A stretch of DNA of 64,000 nucleotides, from the NCBI RefSeq assembly GCF_000382345.1, contig NZ_KB908082.1, forward strand, positions 62,001 through 126,000. The letters are read 5' to 3'. The notes below the pieces were generated by a model. The model ran no database searches. It was given only the letters and a program-made list of their open reading frames with translations, and had not been told where the DNA came from. The DNA is from Massilia niastensis DSM 21313 (GTDB lineage: Bacteria > Pseudomonadota > Gammaproteobacteria > Burkholderiales > Burkholderiaceae_D). Shown in pieces: positions 1 through 47,607 of this stretch (positions within the stretch are counted from its first letter, which is position 1; each line of letters starts with the position of its first letter). Both the position numbers and the translations under genes were made by a program.

Positions 1-2072
1 TCCCGCCGCACAACCTGTCCGAGATCCTGCACGGCGCGCTGCACGTGCTGCGCAACCCGGAATGCACGATCGACGAACTGATCGAGCTGATCCCGGCGCC
101 GGACTTCCCGACCGCCGGCATCATCTACGGCGTCTCGGGCGTGCGCGACGGCTACCGCACCGGCCGCGGCCGCGTGGTGATGCGCGCCAAGACCCACTTC
201 GAGGAATACGGCAAGGATGGCGGCCGCACCGCGATCATCGTCGACGAGCTGCCCTACCAGGTCAACAAGAAATCGCTGCTCGAGCGGATCGCCGAGAACG
301 TGCGCGACAAGAAGCTGGAAGGCATTTCCGACATCCGCGACGAGTCCGACAAGTCGGGCATGCGCGTGGTCATCGAGCTCAAGCGCGGTGAAGTGCCGGA
401 AGTGGTGCTGAACAACCTGTACAAGCAGACCCAGCTGCAAGACACCTTCGGCATGAACATGGTGGCGCTGGTCAACGGCCAGCCGAAGCTGCTGAACCTG
501 AAGCAGATGCTGGAGTGCTTCCTCTCGCACCGCCGCGAGGTCGTCACCCGCCGCACCGTGTTCGAACTGCGCAAGGCGCGCGACCGCGGCCACATGCTGG
601 AAGGCCTGGCGGTGGCGCTGGCCAACATCGACGATTTCATCGCGATCATCAAGGCCGCGCCGACTCCGCCGGTCGCGAAGACCGAGCTGATGGCGCGTTC
701 CTGGGATTCGTCCCTGGTGCGCGAGATGCTCAGCCGCACCGAGACCGGCGCGGCGGGCGGCATCGAAGCCTTCCGTCCGGAGCACCTGCCGAAGCACTAC
801 GGCATGCAGTCGACCGGCCTGTACAAGCTGTCCGACGAGCAGGCCCAGGAAATCCTGCAGATGCGCCTGCAGCGCCTGACCGGCCTGGAGCAGGACAAGA
901 TCGTCAACGAGTACAAGGAAGTGATGGCCCACATCGCCGACCTGCTCGACATCCTGGCGCGCCCGGAGCGCGTGACCACCATCATCGTCGATGAAATGGA
1001 TGCGATCCGGCTCGAGTACGTCGTGAACGGCAAGGACACCCGCCGTTCGACCATCGAGCACAACGCCAGCGACCTCGAGACCGAAGACCTGATCACCCCG
1101 CAGGACATGGTGGTGACCCTGTCGCACTCGGGCTACATGAAGGCCCAGCCGGTGTCCGAATACCGCGCCCAGAAGCGCGGCGGCCGCGGCAAGCAGGCGA
1201 TGGCGACCAAGGAAGACGACTGGATCGACCAGCTGTTCATCGCCAACACCCACGACTACATCCTGTGCTTCTCGAACCGCGGCCGGATGTACTGGCTGAA
1301 GGTGTGGGAAGTGCCGCAGGGCTCGCGCAACTCGCGCGGCAAGCCGATCGTCAACATGTTCCCGCTGCAGGACAACGAGAAGATCACCGTGGTGCTGCCG
1401 CTGTCGGGCGAGAACCGCACCTTCCCCGAAGACCACTACGTCTTCATGGCGACCTCGCTGGGCACGGTCAAGAAGACCCCGCTGCGCGACTTCAGCAACC
1501 CGCGCAAGGCCGGCATCATCGCGGTCGACCTGGACGAGGGCGACGTGCTGGTGGGCGCCGCCCTGACCGACGGCAAGCACGACGTGATGCTGTTCTCCGA
1601 CGGCGGCAAGGCGGTGCGCTTCGACGAGAACGACGTGCGCCCGATGGGCCGCACGGCGCGCGGCGTGCGCGGCATGAACCTGGAAGAGGGCCAGCAGGTC
1701 ATCGCCCTGCTGGTGGCCGAGAACGAGCAGCAGACGGTGCTGACCGCGACCGAGAACGGCTACGGCAAGCGCACCCCGATCCTTGAATACACCCGCCATG
1801 GCCGCGGCACCAAGGGCATGATCGCGATCCAGACCACCGAGCGCAATGGCAAGGTGGTGGCCGCGACCCTGGTCGACGAGACCGACGAGATCATGCTGAT
1901 CACGACCGGCGGCGTGCTGATCCGCACCCGCGTGGCCGAGATCCGCGAGATGGGCCGTGCGACCCAGGGCGTGACCCTGATCGCGGTCGAGGATGGCACC
2001 AAGCTGTCCGGCCTGCAGCGCATCGTCGAGACCGACCTCGAGGAAGTCGAGCTGGAGCCGGCGCCGGAGTAA
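1..2072 (+). CDS. gyrA: DNA gyrase subunit A, 3' part (5' end outside window)
   Basis: Gyrase A breaks and rejoins DNA in the A2B2 enzyme that introduces negative supercoils. The frame is open from base 3 and gives 689 residues, so roughly the first 200 residues, including the catalytic tyrosine, lie before the window. The fragment opens with PPHNLSE and continues through the breakage-reunion core (PDFPTAGII, YRTGRGRV) and the coiled-coil arm into the C-terminal DNA-wrapping beta-pinwheel. A GyrA box, QKRGGRGK, lies near 1170-1193. That box marks gyrase rather than ParC, which has a degenerate one. The acidic tail (EEVELEPAPE) is common in this subunit. In betaproteobacteria gyrA commonly precedes serC-pheA-hisC, as here. 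Confidence 0.97.
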   Translation, partial: PPHNLSEILHGALHVLRNPECTIDELIELIPAPDFPTAGIIYGVSGVRDGYRTGRGRVVMRAKTHFEEYGKDGGRTAIIVDELPYQVNKKSLLERIAENVRDKKLEGISDIRDESDKSGMRVVIELKRGEVPEVVLNNLYKQTQLQDTFGMNMVALVNGQPKLLNLKQMLECFLSHRREVVTRRTVFELRKARDRGHMLEGLAVALANIDDFIAIIKAAPTPPVAKTELMARSWDSSLVREMLSRTETGAAGGIEAFRPEHLPKHYGMQSTGLYKLSDEQAQEILQMRLQRLTGLEQDKIVNEYKEVMAHIADLLDILARPERVTTIIVDEMDAIRLEYVVNGKDTRRSTIEHNASDLETEDLITPQDMVVTLSHSGYMKAQPVSEYRAQKRGGRGKQAMATKEDDWIDQLFIANTHDYILCFSNRGRMYWLKVWEVPQGSRNSRGKPIVNMFPLQDNEKITVVLPLSGENRTFPEDHYVFMATSLGTVKKTPLRDFSNPRKAGIIAVDLDEGDVLVGAALTDGKHDVMLFSDGGKAVRFDENDVRPMGRTARGVRGMNLEEGQQVIALLVAENEQQTVLTATENGYGKRTPILEYTRHGRGTKGMIAIQTTERNGKVVAATLVDETDEIMLITTGGVLIRTRVAEIREMGRATQGVTLIAVEDGTKLSGLQRIVETDLEEVELEPAPE

Positions 2073-2083
2073 TTCCGCCGCCA

Positions 2084-2111
2084 CGCCGCCGGCCCAGCCA
2101 GGCCGGCGGCG
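2084..2111 (+). terminator. GC-rich hairpin after gyrA
   Basis: A perfect 11-bp stem (CGCCGCCGGCC / GGCCGGCGGCG) with a 6-nt loop starts 12 nt after the gyrA stop. Only a weak T content follows (CTTGATG), so it may be a partial terminator or a 3'-end stabiliser rather than a full intrinsic terminator. Confidence 0.5.
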
Positions 2112-2153
2112 CTTGATGTCCCACCGGCTCATTCCACCCGCCTGGAAATATCG

Positions 2154-2699
2154 ATGAAAAAGCTCTTCGCCGCCCTGACCGCCGCCGCCGCCTTCGCCGG
2201 CCTGCCTTCGCTGGCCGCCGCCGCGCCTGCCGATCCTCAGGCCACCGAAGCCGTCAAGGCCATGCTGGACGCCATGCAGGTGCGCCAGATGATGGCCTCG
2301 TCCTTCGTCGAGATGGAAAAGACGATGCCGGCGGTGATGCGCGCGCAGGTGGTCGGCGTGATCGAGGCCGATCCGACCCTGAGCCCCGCGAAGAAGCAGG
2401 AAGCGCTGGCCAGGGCCGAGAAGATGCTCCCCGGCGTCGCCCAGGCGGTGAGCCGGGTGTTCCGCGATCCGGCCCTGGTCGACGAGATGCTCGCCGAGAT
2501 GGTGCCGCTGTACGCGAAGCATTTCACCACCGCCGAGATCCGGGAGCTGACGGCCTTCTACGGCACGCCACTGGGCCGCAAGATGATGGCGACGATGCCG
2601 AAGCTGTCGGCCGAAAGCATGGCGCTGAGCCAGAAGCTCGTCACGCCGCGGCTCGGCAAGCTGATGCAGGACGTCATGAAAGACGCACAACAACCTTAA
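2154..2699 (+). CDS. Secreted DUF2059 domain protein
   Basis: A 181-residue protein of unknown function. It opens with a clear signal peptide ([20 protein letters not shown], with likely cleavage after the following AAAA stretch), so the mature protein should be periplasmic. The helical region contains [20 protein letters not shown] at about residues 123-142, the pattern that defines the DUF2059 family. The shine-dalgarno is poor (GGAAA). The gene sits between gyrA and serC on the same strand, 19 nt before serC, where other betaproteobacteria often carry an outer-membrane protein gene. Family assignment is confident; the role is unknown. Confidence 0.85.
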
Positions 2700-2718
2700 C
2701 CGCCCTCGAAAGGACCGC

Positions 2719-3807
2719 ATGACCAAGATCTTCAATTTCTCCGCCGGTCCGGCCGTACTGCCCAGGGAAGTGCTGCAGCAGGCCGCCGACGAGATGCTCG
2801 ACTGGCACGGCAGCGGCATGTCGGTCATGGAGATGAGCCACCGCGGTCCGGAATTCATCTCCATCCACAAGCAGGCGGTCGCCGACCTGCGCGAACTGCT
2901 GGCGATCCCGTCCAACTACAAGATCCTGTTCCAGCAGGGCGGGGGCCTGGGCCAGAACGCGGTGATCCCGCTGAACCTGGCCGGCCGCCGCCCCCAGCCG
3001 GCCACCATCGACTACATCCATACCGGCTCGTGGTCGGGCAAGTCGATCAAGGAAGGCGCGCGCTATGCGCGCGTCAACGTGGCCGCATCGAGCGAAGCGA
3101 ACGGCTTCACTTCGGTGCCGCCGCAGGAATCCTGGAAGCTCAGCAAGGACGCGGCCTACCTCCACATCTGCACCAACGAGACCATCGACGGCGTCGAGTA
3201 CGACTTCGCGCCCGCGATCGACCCGGACGTGCCGCTGGTGGCCGACATGTCCTCGCACATCCTGTCGCGCAACATCGACGTGTCGAAGTACGGCGTGATC
3301 TTCGCCGGCGCGCAGAAGAACATCGGCCCGGCCGGCCTGACCCTGGTGATCGTGCGCGACGACCTGCTCGACCACGCGCTCCCGGCCTGCCCGTCGGCCT
3401 TCCACTGGAAGACCGTGGCCGAGCACGACTCGATGTTCAATACGCCGCCGACCTACGCGATCTACATCGCGGGGCTGGTGTTCGCCTGGCTCAAGAAGCA
3501 GGGCGGGATCGCGGCGATGGAACAGCGCAATATCGAAAAAGCGCGCCTGCTGTACCAGGCGCTGGACGCCGACGATTTCTACAGCAATCGCGTGGCGCCC
3601 GCGTACCGTTCGCGCATGAACGTGCCGTTCTACCTGCGCGACGAATCCCTGAACGAGAAATTCCTGGCCGGCGCGAAGGCGCGCGGGCTGCTGCAACTGA
3701 AGGGCCACAAGTCCGTCGGCGGCATGCGGGCATCGATCTACAACGCGATGCCGATCGAGGGTGTGCAGGCACTCGTCGATTATTTGAACGAGTTCGCCGG
3801 ACGTTGA
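2719..3807 (+). CDS. serC: Phosphoserine aminotransferase
   Basis: Transfers the amino group of glutamate to 3-phosphohydroxypyruvate in serine synthesis, and also acts in pyridoxal phosphate synthesis. The 362-residue length is normal for the family. Visible marks are the N-terminal [11 protein letters not shown], the glycine-rich [10 protein letters not shown], and the PLP-binding lysine K200 in [12 protein letters not shown]. The end matches the family ([20 protein letters not shown]). An AAGGA ribosome site lies 7 nt before the ATG. It is cytoplasmic and leads into the aromatic and histidine block. Confidence 0.97.
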
Positions 3808-11144: not shown

Positions 11145-11450
11145 ATGACCAAGTCCGAGCTGATCAACCGACTGGCTGAGCGTTATTCGCAGCTGGTGGC
11201 GAAGGATGCGGAGTTTGCAGTCAAGACCATCCTCGATGCGATGACCAACGCCCTGGCGACCGGGCAGCGCATCGAGATCCGTGGTTTCGGCAGCTTCGCG
11301 CTGAACAGCCGGCCCCCGCGCATCGGACGCAATCCGAAGTCCGGCGACAAGGTGATGGTGCCCGAAAAACGGGTGCCCCACTTCAAGCCGGGCAAGCAGT
11401 TGCGCGAGCGGGTGGACGCGATGGTCGGGCAACCGATCATTAACGACTGA
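11145..11450 (+). CDS. ihfB: Integration host factor subunit beta
   Basis: One half of the IHF heterodimer, which binds WATCARNNNNTTR-type sites and bends DNA by about 160 degrees. The protein has 101 residues. The N-terminal [17 protein letters not shown] and the arm region [20 protein letters not shown] then RNPKSGDKV, with the intercalating proline, identify the beta subunit. It lies directly after rpsA as in most proteobacteria and ends at a strong terminator. Its target motif recurs seven times in the array at 45.9-46.9 kb of this window. Confidence 0.97.
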
Positions 11451-44392: not shown

Positions 44393-44419
44393 ATGAAGCG
44401 CTAAAAAGAAGCGCTTCAT
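44393..44419. terminator. Hairpin at the xseA 3' end
   Basis: Arms ATGAAGCGC / GCGCTTCAT, 9 bp, with a 9-nt loop; overlaps the xseA stop codon. No T-run follows, so it may only be a transcript-end stabiliser between xseA and sodB. Confidence 0.4.
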
Positions 44420-45768
44420 TCGAGAATGCTTTGCACTTGCGCCACACCGACTTCGGCGCTGCCGTTGGCCAGGCGCACGGTCAGCGTGTCGCGCACCTTG
44501 ATCTGGGCCGGGTCGCGCAGCACCTGTCCCTTGCTGTCGCGCACGATCGCATAGCCGCGTTCCAGGGTGCGCTGCGGGTTCAGCAGTTCGAGCTGGGCGG
44601 ACAGCGCATGCAGGGCGTCGCGCCGCCGTTCGACCTGGCTGCACAGGCTGGCGTTCAGGTGGCGCTGGTCGGACAGGAGCTGGGCGCGCAGCGCGCGCAT
44701 GTCGGGGCGGTAGCGCGACCAGCGCTGGCGCAGCTGGGCCAGCATCATGCCGTGGCGGTTGACGGGCACGTGCAGCGCGTGGGTCATCGCGCTCGCCATC
44801 GCCAGCAGCTTGAGGCGCTGGTTGCCGATCCGCGCCGAGGGGCTGAGCAGGCGGCGGCCGAGGTTGTCCAGCCCCTGGCTGGCGTCCGACAGCGTGCGCT
44901 CCATCGCGCGCCGCAGGTCGGCGCCATCGGCTTCCAGCGAGGCCAGCCAGTCGGCGCGCGGCGTGGCGGCCAGTTCGGCGGCCGCGGTCGGGGTGGCGGC
45001 GCGCACGTCGGCCGCGAAGTCGGCGATGGTGACGTCGGTCTCGTGGCCGACGCCCGAGATCACGGGAATGGCGCAGGCGTCGATCGCGCGCGCCACGCAT
45101 TCTTCGTTGAAGCTCCACAGGTCCTCGATCGAGCCGCCGCCGCGGCAGACCAGCAGCACGTCGACTTCGGCGCGGCGCGAGGCGGTCATGATGGCTTCGG
45201 CGATCCTGTCGGCCGCGAACTGGCCCTGCACCGGCGCCGGGTAGAGCACGATCCGCACGTGGGGCGCACGGCGGCGCAGGGCGGTCAGCACGTCGCGCAG
45301 CGCGGCCGCCTGCGGGCTCGTGACGATGCCGACGCTGCGCGGGAACAGCGGCAGGGCGCGCTTGCGCTCCGGGTCGAACAGGCCCTGGGCCGCCAGCTTT
45401 TCCTTCAGGCGCAGGAAGGCTTCGTACAGCTGGCCCACGCCGGCGCGGCGGATCGCCTCGACATTGATCTGGTAGTCGCCGCGCGCGCCGTACAGCGTGA
45501 CCAGCGCCCGCACCTCGACCCGGTCGCCCTCGCGCGGGTTGAAGCCCGCCATCTGCGCGCGGCTGCGGAACATCACGGCGCGCACCTGGGCGGCATCGTC
45601 CTTCAGGGTGAAGTACCAGTGGCCCGAACTGGCCCGCGTGAAGTTGGAAATCTCGCCGCCGATCCAGACCAGTGGAAAACTACGCTCGAGCAATCGAGCC
45701 ACCTGCTGGTTCAGGGCGGTGACGGTCAGCACCGGCGGAGCGGTGTAGGCGGGGTCGGCATCGTGCAT
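44416..45768 (-). CDS. xseA: Exodeoxyribonuclease VII large subunit
   Basis: 450 residues. An OB-fold start ([26 protein letters not shown]), the catalytic domain ([38 protein letters not shown]) and the long helical region with a closing [15 protein letters not shown]. Degrades single-stranded DNA from both ends with the small subunit XseB, not seen here. Start at MHDADPAY; an in-frame TTG 21 nt upstream is less likely. Its 5' side faces the 1.2 kb DnaA-box array. Confidence 0.95.
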
Positions 45769-45895
45769 GGCTGGCGGGGGAAAAGGCAAAGCTGATGCTT
45801 ATGTCATATCTTCCCTTAAACGACAAGGGCTTTTCACCTGCCTGTGCAGAACTTTCTGTTGCCGCTTTTCAATGCAGAATAAAAGATGTGTTTAA

Positions 45896-45960
45896 ATTCA
45901 ATGGCTTAGCGGTGAGTCTCCCCACTTGGCCACAATCTTATCCACAAAATCTGTGTGGAA
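45896..45960 (+). repeat. DnaA/IHF module 1
   Basis: ATTCAATGGCTTA (45896), TTGGCCACA (45926), TTATCCACA (45938), TGTGTGGAA (45952). The first element has one mismatch to the IHF consensus. Confidence 0.8.
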
Positions 45961-46017
45961 CTCATCCATAAGACCCAAGACTGCGCAGGATTTGGGCAGT
46001 GCAGGATGCTTGATTTA

Positions 46018-46082
46018 AATCAGATACTTAGCGCTAGTACCTTGGGCTTGATCACATGCTTGTCCACAAAAGCTGTGAATAG
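46018..46082 (+). repeat. DnaA/IHF module 2
   Basis: AATCAGATACTTA (46018, full IHF consensus), TTGATCACA (46048), TTGTCCACA (46060), TGTGAATAG (46074). Confidence 0.8.
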
Positions 46083-46178
46083 CCAGGGCTGCCGCCCGGC
46101 CGGGAGCCAGGGGCTAGTGCAGGGCCGGCAAGGGAGCAGGCATGCTCAAAAATGAAGCGTGGAAACTTTCTTGTTCTA

Positions 46179-46243
46179 GATCAATGGCTTACCGTGTGGA
46201 AAATAGCCTTGCACACAATCTTGTCCACAAAACATGTGCACAA
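46179..46243 (+). repeat. DnaA/IHF module 3
   Basis: GATCAATGGCTTA (46179, one mismatch), TTGCACACA (46209), TTGTCCACA (46221), TGTGCACAA (46235, which read on the other strand is TTGTGCACA). Confidence 0.8.
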
Positions 46244-46361
46244 GCTGCCCAACACTGCGGATGTCGCGGAGACGGGACGATGTTTCTTTTGGGGAAATTC
46301 TGATTCTGTATGTTCATACAGTACTGCCTGTTTTCTAGGCACGGCAGGTCGACTTGATTAG

Positions 46362-46426
46362 AATCAATGACTTAGCATGGCATTCGGCGGTTTCCACACA
46401 CTGTTATCCACAAAAAATGTGCACAG
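46362..46426 (+). repeat. DnaA/IHF module 4
   Basis: AATCAATGACTTA (46362, full IHF consensus), TTCCACACA (46392), TTATCCACA (46404), TGTGCACAG (46418). Confidence 0.8.
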
Positions 46427-46553
46427 CCGTACTTTCCCTGTATCCCGAGCAAAATTGGCAAACAAAAGAAGCAATCCAAGTCGTTTCGGGTCGCAAATGT
46501 TATGCATTTACGTGATTTGCTTAAATTTGAAGCGCTGAGAGTTTTTCTCAATG

Positions 46554-46618
46554 GATCAAGCACTTACGATCAAGAATTGCCCCTTGCTCACACTCTTGTC
46601 CACAAAAAATGTGAGGAA
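46554..46618 (+). repeat. DnaA/IHF module 5
   Basis: GATCAAGCACTTA (46554, one mismatch), TTGCTCACA (46584), TTGTCCACA (46596), TGTGAGGAA (46610). Confidence 0.8.
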
Positions 46619-46691
46619 CCTTGCGGTCATGGATGAGAAGTACACGTCGGCTCGCTGCCTGTTTTTTGATCTATGGAAAATTATCCATGCA

Positions 46692-46756
46692 TATCAAGGA
46701 CTTGGGTGTTTCTGGGTCGCATTGCACACACTTTTGTCCACAGAATTTGTTCGTAA
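46692..46756 (+). repeat. DnaA/IHF module 6
   Basis: TATCAAGGACTTG (46692, full IHF consensus), TTGCACACA (46722), TTGTCCACA (46734), TGTTCGTAA (46748, one mismatch in the inverted box). Confidence 0.78.
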
Positions 46757-46865
46757 CTACATGTTGGGGTGAACAAGCCAGTCGGCCTCAGCAGGCCGCC
46801 GCCACCCCGCACAGGCCAGCCCATGAGACTGCCATTTTCTTGCGCAGGATCAAAAAGCCTATAAA

Positions 46866-46930
46866 AATCAAGGGTCTTTGTGCTATCGCAAGGCCTTGCG
46901 CACAATTTTATCCACAGAAGATGTGCAGAA
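46866..46930 (+). repeat. DnaA/IHF module 7
   Basis: AATCAAGGGTCTT (46866, two mismatches at the right end), TTGCGCACA (46896), TTATCCACA (46908), TGTGCAGAA (46922). It ends 68 bp before the exbB start and may overlap its promoter. Confidence 0.78.
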
Positions 46931-46998
46931 CTGTACTTGCCGCTTTGCTGGCAACTTGTTACATTGCCGAATTCATTTCCACACCTCAGGAGTTTCTC

Positions 46999-47607
46999 TT
47001 GCTCGCCATTTTTCAAGCCGCAGGCTGGCCTATCTGGCTGCTGCTGGTCGCGTCGATCGTTGCCGTTGCCCTGATCGTCGAACGCATCATCTACCTGCGT
47101 CGCGAGAAGATCCTCCCGAAACAGCTGCTGGACGAAGTGATCCGCGTCTACCGCAACGGCAAGGTCACGCCGGACGTGGTGGACAAGCTGGAACAGAATT
47201 CGCCGCTCGGCACCGTGCTGGCGGCCGCCCTGCGCAACGTCGACGCGCCGCGCGACGTGATGAAGGAATCGATCGAGGAAGCGGGGCGCGGCGTGGCCAC
47301 CGGCCTGGAACGCTTCCTGACCACGCTCGGCACCATCGCTTCGCTGGCCCCGCTGATGGGCCTGTTCGGCACGGTGGTCGGCATGATCGAGATCTTCGGC
47401 GCCCAGGCCCCGACCGGCGGCAACAACCCGGCCCAGCTCGCGCACGGCATTTCGGTGGCCCTGTATAACACCGGTTTCGGCCTGGCGATCGCGATGCCGG
47501 CCCTGGTCTTCTACCGCCACTTCCGCAACCTGGTCGACACCTTCGTGGTCGACATGGAACTGCAGGCCGTGAAGTTCGTCGACGTCGTCCACGGGTCGCG
47601 CAAATGA
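46999..47607 (+). CDS. exbB: Biopolymer transport protein ExbB (MotA/TolQ/ExbB family)
   Basis: Proton-channel subunit that powers TonB or a similar partner. 202 residues. TTG start at 46999 with AGGAG 6 nt upstream, giving the normal short N-terminus before AIFQAAGWPIWLLLVASIVA. Three membrane helices; FLTTLGTIASLAPLMGLFGT and NTGFGLAIAMPALVFYRHF are the family channel segments. Longer in-frame starts would extend into the DnaA-box array and are rejected. exbD overlaps by 4 nt. With btuB in the window, TonB energy is needed. Confidence 0.9.
   Translation: MLAIFQAAGWPIWLLLVASIVAVALIVERIIYLRREKILPKQLLDEVIRVYRNGKVTPDVVDKLEQNSPLGTVLAAALRNVDAPRDVMKESIEEAGRGVATGLERFLTTLGTIASLAPLMGLFGTVVGMIEIFGAQAPTGGNNPAQLAHGISVALYNTGFGLAIAMPALVFYRHFRNLVDTFVVDMELQAVKFVDVVHGSRK

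Follow-up and report, generated by a model that had tools for sequence, protein, structure and literature searches.

How the level of ATP-DnaA is set is a central question of replication timing; in E. coli, a pair of DARS sites has served to study it. Passages on DARS and related topics in PMC4585315, PMC10950094, PMC4245941, PMC8682772, PMC6090056, PMC10380432 and PMC5742627 provide the background to the present comparison. In reviews, DARS1 and DARS2 are described as alike in spacing, with box I opposite to boxes II and III, and the head-to-head pair of boxes I and II is called characteristic of DARS and essential. The excerpts on DARS2 place IBS between the core and FBS, give the spacing of IBS1 and IBS2 as 3 bp, and report weaker function in spacing mutants in which the IHF sites are moved. 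The DnaA residues used are stated in a review to be Asp269 at DARS1 and Leu290 at DARS2, and for datA an IHF site between DnaA boxes is described. According to reviews, many proteobacteria have DARS-like sequences, and DARS2 occurs in beta- or gamma-proteobacteria, the beta-proteobacterial DARS2 appearing without detail in the excerpt from PMC5742627; another source, in its excerpted part, treats the DARS2 core and Fis as specific to gamma-proteobacteria near E. coli. Single sites are therefore of an already known kind. In the open-licence literature, no multi-copy DARS array, no DARS at an xseA-exbB locus and no compact Fis-IHF-core unit was found.

Stretches of MG1655 around uvrB, mutH and datA were scanned with the Burkholderiales trio pattern. 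We take DARS1 to lie near uvrB and DARS2 near mutH, locations that are in part stated in the literature. In the bioD-uvrB gap DARS1 reads TAATACACA-3-TTATCCACA-5-inverted box, and upstream of mutH DARS2 reads TTCTTCACA-3-CTATCCACA-5-inverted box. With up to three mismatches allowed, these two were the only matches (two mismatches each) in 71 kb of MG1655 sequence that included oriC, dnaA and datA, and 4 Mb of simulated sequence (one strand) gave none. Counted from the first base of the first DnaA box, as are all offsets below unless stated otherwise, MG1655 DARS2 has two IHF-like sites at -87 and -71, with one mismatch each and 3 bp apart.

The locus described here lies in a 64,000-nucleotide stretch of the Massilia niastensis DSM 21313 genome, hereafter the window. 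The array interval, 45790-46998, separates two divergent genes and contains small ORFs according to the ORF list; an Rfam scan of 45700-47050 at E values up to 1 returned no match. The gene on the minus strand (44416-45789) is xseA, encoding the large subunit of exodeoxyribonuclease VII (TIGR00237, 474 bits), as the preliminary description had named it. The second flank, at 46999-47607 on the plus strand and probably read from a TTG start after AGGAG, encodes an ExbB/TolQ-family proton channel subunit; its best match, TolQ at 79 bits, is below the cut-off, as are all curated models, so that the earlier name exbB holds only loosely and is used here in that sense. Within the window, the four-element pattern of an IHF-like site and three DnaA boxes matches seven times with 0-2 mismatches, compared with no match in 100 shuffles, and the element offsets 0/30/42/56, counted from the IHF-like site, are constant in all seven modules. 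This bears out the seven modules with fixed offsets reported earlier, at the same positions. Relative to the first DnaA box, the IHF-like site is at -30 and the boxes at 0, +12 (same direction) and +26 (inverted). Each module thus carries the class features of DARS, namely three boxes, of which III and II are co-directed and 3 bp apart and I is inverted after a further 5 bp (7/7).

All seven modules are on the plus strand. Module 1, proximal to xseA (45896-45960), comprises an IHF-like site at 45896-45908, box III at 45926-45934, box II at 45938-45946 and inverted box I at 45952-45960, and no Fis-like element was found in it near -65. Module 2 (45983-46082) begins with a Fis-like element at 45983-45997 (0 mismatches), followed by an IHF-like site at 46018-46030 and the core at 46048-46082. 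The same succession is seen in module 3 (46144-46243), with a Fis-like element at 46144-46158 (1 mismatch), an IHF-like site at 46179-46191 and the core at 46209-46243, and in module 4 (46326-46426), where the Fis-like element at 46326-46340 (1 mismatch) stands at -66, the IHF-like site at 46362-46374 and the core at 46392-46426. Module 5 (46519-46618) has these elements at 46519-46533 (1 mismatch), 46554-46566 and 46584-46618, and module 6 (46657-46756) at 46657-46671 (1 mismatch), 46692-46704 and 46722-46756. Module 7, proximal to exbB (46831-46930), has a Fis-like element at 46831-46845 and an IHF-like site at 46866-46878, each with two mismatches, and its core at 46896-46930. The inverted TGTG box, earlier ascribed to every module, is present in six of the seven and reads TGTT in module 6. 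Single mismatches in the IHF part occur in modules 1, 3 and 5, so that six of the seven modules carry an IHF-like site at -30 with at most one mismatch and module 7 one with two.

Among the seven copies, mean pairwise identity is 0.82, 0.94 and 0.69 for the three boxes in order and 0.68 for the IHF site; by eye, several copies of boxes III and I are poor matches to the DnaA consensus. The spacer between the IHF site and the first box was reported to be unrelated between copies, and its mean pairwise identity of 0.26 over 15 columns agrees with this. Start-to-start spacings of the modules are 122, 161, 183, 192, 138 and 174 bp. Helical phasing between modules was considered and rejected, since by eye these spacings are not multiples of a turn; despite the absent phasing, single inter-module gaps (138/139, 191/192) recur between species.

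The Fis-like palindrome stands at -65 or -66 in modules 2-7, with at most one mismatch in five of them and two in module 7; it is a predicted Fis site, called from a degenerate consensus. Column statistics were taken over 215 modules at 34 loci (33 from relatives and the window), module totals varying with the counting rule (215 on both strands, or 34 first and 177 other modules on the better strand). In the 215 modules the informative columns are chiefly those of the boxes, of the IHF site and of an A/T-rich patch on its 5' side. The 177 non-first modules show an additional conserved, palindromic block from about -66 to -51, which fits the published Fis consensus GNNYANNNNNTRNNC. At -66 to -64 the exact consensus occurs in 26% of these modules (control windows at most 9%), and a match with up to one mismatch in 64% (control windows at most 26%). 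First modules are nearly devoid of it, with one exact match, at -66, among 34. With this element, which recurs in six of seven modules, the repeat measures about 100 bp rather than the 65 bp of the preliminary description, in which this element of modules 2-7 had been overlooked. The resulting unit order, Fis-like (-65), IHF-like (-30) and core (0 to +34), is that of E. coli DARS2.

On these comparisons of sequence, the array is probably an amplified DARS, which would regenerate ATP-DnaA from ADP-DnaA. Nucleotide resetting is favoured because the core is exactly that of DARS, the IHF-like and Fis-like elements follow in DARS2 order, and a single core occupies the same locus in nine other families. 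On boxes II and I, which are 5 bp apart, a head-to-head pair of ADP-DnaA molecules would loosen its ADP with the aid of a third DnaA on box III. IHF would bend the DNA just upstream of the core, and Fis, 35 bp further out than IHF, would stabilise the active shape; apo-DnaA would then leave the DNA and take up ATP. Having seven units together would multiply the rate of reactivation and tie it to the copying time of that chromosome region, so that active DnaA may be raised before each replication round, with more capacity, or more robustness, than one unit would give. Every binding event in this scheme is inferred, and so are the direction in which the nucleotide changes and the benefit of having several copies. 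Several observations speak against a DARS: the IHF position at -30 is unlike that of DARS2 (-71/-87) and of the single Burkholderiales form (about -97), module 1 has no Fis-like element, and module 7 has weak IHF and Fis matches. The weaker function of DARS2 with displaced IHF sites, the degenerate Fis consensus and the poorly matching copies of boxes III and I count on the same side.

The candidate partner proteins are encoded in the same genome. Its DnaA shares 247 of 460 aligned residues with that of E. coli; Asp269 and Leu290 are conserved and the arginine finger is present, and the replacement of Arg227 by His and Glu21 by Gln counts as a further point against the DARS reading. An Hda candidate is a partial DnaA-family hit in an open frame of 239 aa. 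An IHF alpha gene scores above its curated cut-off, and a Fis gene behind dusB falls just under its own (NF002517, 118.1 bits against 122). A HU/IHF-family gene at 11145-11450 of the window (plus strand, C7:73145; 63.7 bits to himA, below cut-off) is a further candidate partner; from sequence and gene order we take it to be ihfB and the preceding ORF to be rpsA.

Single cores outside the window's family were represented by 63 exact trios, 60 chosen by hand among the matches listed and three others. Twenty-six of them, from as many genomes and nine other Burkholderiales families, are located between xseA and exbB; the remaining 37 are not, by the same test, although L112, L118 and L151 among these hold xseA nearby. 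A reversed IHF match with up to one mismatch is found at -100 to -95 in 24 of the 26 and 35 of the 37 (control windows: means 0.18 and 0.33, maximum 2), and a Fis-like element with up to one mismatch at -66 to -64 in 11 and 30, respectively (control means 0.91 and 1.43, maxima 4 and 5). An IHF site at -31 to -28 is present in only one trio of each set (2/63). These single sites resemble the array in their core, in the xseA-exbB locus of 26 genomes and in the Fis-like element at -66 to -64 (41/63), and they differ from it in having one core, a reversed IHF site near -97, and Fis between core and IHF.

In another explanation, the array is a regulatory region that couples transcription of xseA, the ExbB-like operon or both to DnaA, IHF and Fis. 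Its place between divergent genes fits this, as does the orientation of the array modules, all of which point toward exbB in each of the 32 loci with gene rows (of 33); yet the same core stands elsewhere in the 37 trios mentioned above and at another locus of the window's own genome, which makes this coupling improbable as the main role.

For the amplified DARS, the positions of IHF sites suggest a line of descent. An IHF match with up to one mismatch at -30 or -29, the offsets seen in relatives, is present in 161 of the 215 array modules, whose 34 loci had been chosen without IHF. At least 80 named loci were left out of these IHF statistics because they had been selected with an IHF-containing pattern. 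Among the 34 first, xseA-proximal modules, 17 have reversed matches at -97/-96 and 29 an IHF site at -30, so that many carry both; in the 177 others, 132 matches fall at -30/-29 and there is no peak at -97. The simplest reading of these sequences would be one ancestral DARS at xseA-exbB that was amplified in the window's family, gaining IHF at -30 and not carrying the distal IHF site along. The window's first module, which lacks the -97 site, is an exception to this reading; in the window's own modules no reversed IHF site at -97 was found, the best candidate having two mismatches (module 4). Three family genomes were examined as exceptions. In G237 and G160 (L292 and L293) xseA adjoins exbB and no trio is recognisable with up to five mismatches, which looks like a loss of the locus; in G200 one trio is present, with one mismatch, together with a perfect -97-type site.

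In the window's own genome the trio pattern (with TGTK) gives eight hits, seven in the array and one at C5:23562. All 61 genomes of the genus sample, this one included, have 2-7 exact trios. In the family sample of 195 genomes, at least one exact trio occurs in 175, at least three in 103 and at least five in 50; since 92 genomes thus fall below three and G237 and G160 have no trio at the locus, the array is not universal in the lineage. The trio matches in 146 of 399 genomes of the order sample, and genomes outside the window's family have 0-3 trios each among the matches listed. No exact cluster of three or more was found in the sampled genomes outside that family: of four such genomes with three trios, none has all three together, two (G180, G372) having a pair about 275 bp apart and two (G331, G367) scattered trios. 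In the class sample (59 of 274 genomes with a match), no contig outside the own genome holds three or more, the five trios of G697 lying on five contigs and the three identical trios of G657 on three. A reversed control pattern gave no match among those listed. The preliminary description had proposed a search of relatives for the module, with absence from them, or occurrence at many unrelated loci of the genome, as outcomes that would speak against it; the reverse was found, the xseA-exbB locus being one locus that is conserved in relatives. A mobile repeat family was rejected, because the trios of the own genome amount to the array and one further site and the locus is common to relatives.

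Among the matches listed, modules with IHF occur in Massilia, Telluria, Duganella, Janthinobacterium, Pseudoduganella, Rugamonas, Collimonas and Glaciimonas, with two (Collimonas) to nine (L192) units per locus by a relaxed count. The same IHF-containing pattern also matches, among those listed, single modules outside Burkholderiales with an IHF match at about -30, in a Coxiella endosymbiont (L187) and in Methylomonas lenta (L185). The xseA-exbB locus of Glaciimonas soli (L239, 3298-4751) contains eight modules; five belong to units of about 246 bp, of which the first two are 92% identical without gaps, and the locus looks like a recent tandem amplification. Gaps inside an array were seen in L081 (1.8 kb), L174 (3.9 kb) and L203 (2.1 kb), and the two nearly identical last modules that flank the gap in L081 suggest insertion or duplication. 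In G455, a family genome, exact-trio clusters of six and four lie at C1:896432-899583 and 5746337-5747358, so a second locus can be amplified too. With a relaxed pattern, a locus from another family (L113 in G385, 1375-3011) shows four trio-like sites (0-2 mismatches, one exact) in 1.6 kb, possibly an independent multiplication. Paired trios are a recurrent double arrangement, 375-465 bp apart in G101, G527, G493, G516 and G465 and about 275 bp apart in G180 and G372.

Between species, boxes and IHF sites have changed far less than the DNA that separates them. When the last five modules of 12 arrays were aligned, mean pairwise identity was 1.00 for box II, 0.93 for box III, 0.88 for box I and 0.83 for the IHF site, compared with 0.46 for intermodule DNA and 0.35 for the spacer. 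That box II is the most conserved element, and that seven strong TTRTCCACA boxes stand within 1 kb, would also suit a DnaA sink, in which the 21 boxes of the whole array titrate DnaA from oriC and the geometry merely serves cooperative binding; titration on E. coli DNA is argued for in the excerpted part of PMC12371093. For such a sink neither an inverted third box at a constant distance of 5 bp nor an IHF or Fis element would be required, yet these keep fixed offsets in many modules. Titration is the strongest rival to an amplified DARS and could act alongside it, but as the sole explanation it is unlikely.

Chromosome position was assessed with dnaA as a stand-in for the origin in seven genus genomes of 1-3 contigs. 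These are the members of the genus, among the 18 genomes of the dnaA search, in which one contig holds dnaA, the array and the single trio, unlike G008, G025 and G002. In six of the seven, the array and the single second trio are on opposite arms, with the array at 0.50-0.76 of its arm; in G042 both are on the same arm, at 0.16 and 0.26. G101, from another genus and outside the seven, has two sites on opposite arms, one of them 92 kb from dnaA. E. coli DARS2 and DARS1 likewise lie on opposite arms, at replichore positions 0.41 and 0.66. The second trio of the window's genome (C5:23562; L001, 1501-1535) is a single DARS-type core between two genes that by eye encode a UvrD/Rep-like helicase and a SIR2-like protein. 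It is flanked by IHF-like sites, reversed at -97 (1 mismatch) and at +52 (0 mismatches). Of the 19 non-array trio loci among L009-L038, 17 have the +52 site as well, and a Fis element at -65 was found in none of 18 second-locus singles of the genus.

A cluster of DnaA boxes with IHF sites might also suggest a secondary replication origin. The trio is absent, with up to three mismatches, from all 20 dnaA-search loci of 18 genomes (five of these loci lack one flank, as dnaA starts the contig) and from E. coli oriC, which disfavours an origin; moreover, the array does not lie beside dnaA as an oriC would, being on contig C7 of a draft genome in 139 contigs with dnaA on C25. An origin is therefore extremely improbable. 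Of the roles first proposed, which were titration, nucleotide resetting, a secondary origin and a link to neighbouring genes, resetting of the DARS kind is the one that core geometry, the order of the elements and the shared locus favour, and the secondary origin is disfavoured.

It is an evenly balanced proposition that the array represents a new replication-control architecture, in which a one-copy recharging site became a set of as many as nine compact Fis-IHF-core units in one place, IHF moved from -97 to -30, the number of units sets the reactivation dose and initiation timing, and the second site serves as a counterpart on the other arm. Because natural arrays of several units stand at an orthologous locus, each unit being about 100 bp long, and IHF positions vary among related genomes, the effect of dose and the part played by IHF and Fis geometry become directly testable. 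The single xseA-exbB site of nine other families offers a simple marker for DARS loci in unannotated genomes, and DnaA-box clusters of this kind could mislead origin prediction.

Comparison with the E. coli sites probably places the array within the DARS class. The preliminary description had pointed to datA and DARS as cousins, and the second comparison is upheld by the exact core geometry. Like the array, datA has an IHF site and tandem boxes 3 bp apart, presumably its boxes 7 and 2, which might suggest that the array assists hydrolysis of DnaA-bound ATP with the aid of IHF. However, the IHF site of datA lies between its boxes, whereas that of each module is outside the core, though it may act with the boxes of a neighbouring module; datA differs from the trio pattern at four positions, having no inverted third box at 5 bp, and its effect on DnaA is opposite. 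The datA architecture is thus not that of the array, and a datA-like role is very unlikely. DARS1, in the bioD-uvrB gap, shares the core geometry and differs in being a single copy with no IHF match (0-1 mismatch) within about 300 bp and no exact Fis consensus nearby. The closest likeness is to DARS2, a 455-bp site upstream of mutH, which has identical core spacing and orientation and likewise its IHF sites beside box III; its Fis site is further out, as the predicted Fis-like element of the array would be. The distances differ, with IHF at -71/-87 in DARS2 and at -30 in the array, and an exact Fis consensus at -125 in DARS2 compared with a Fis-like element at -65. DARS2 is, moreover, one unit among other gene neighbours, whereas the array has seven units at xseA-exbB.
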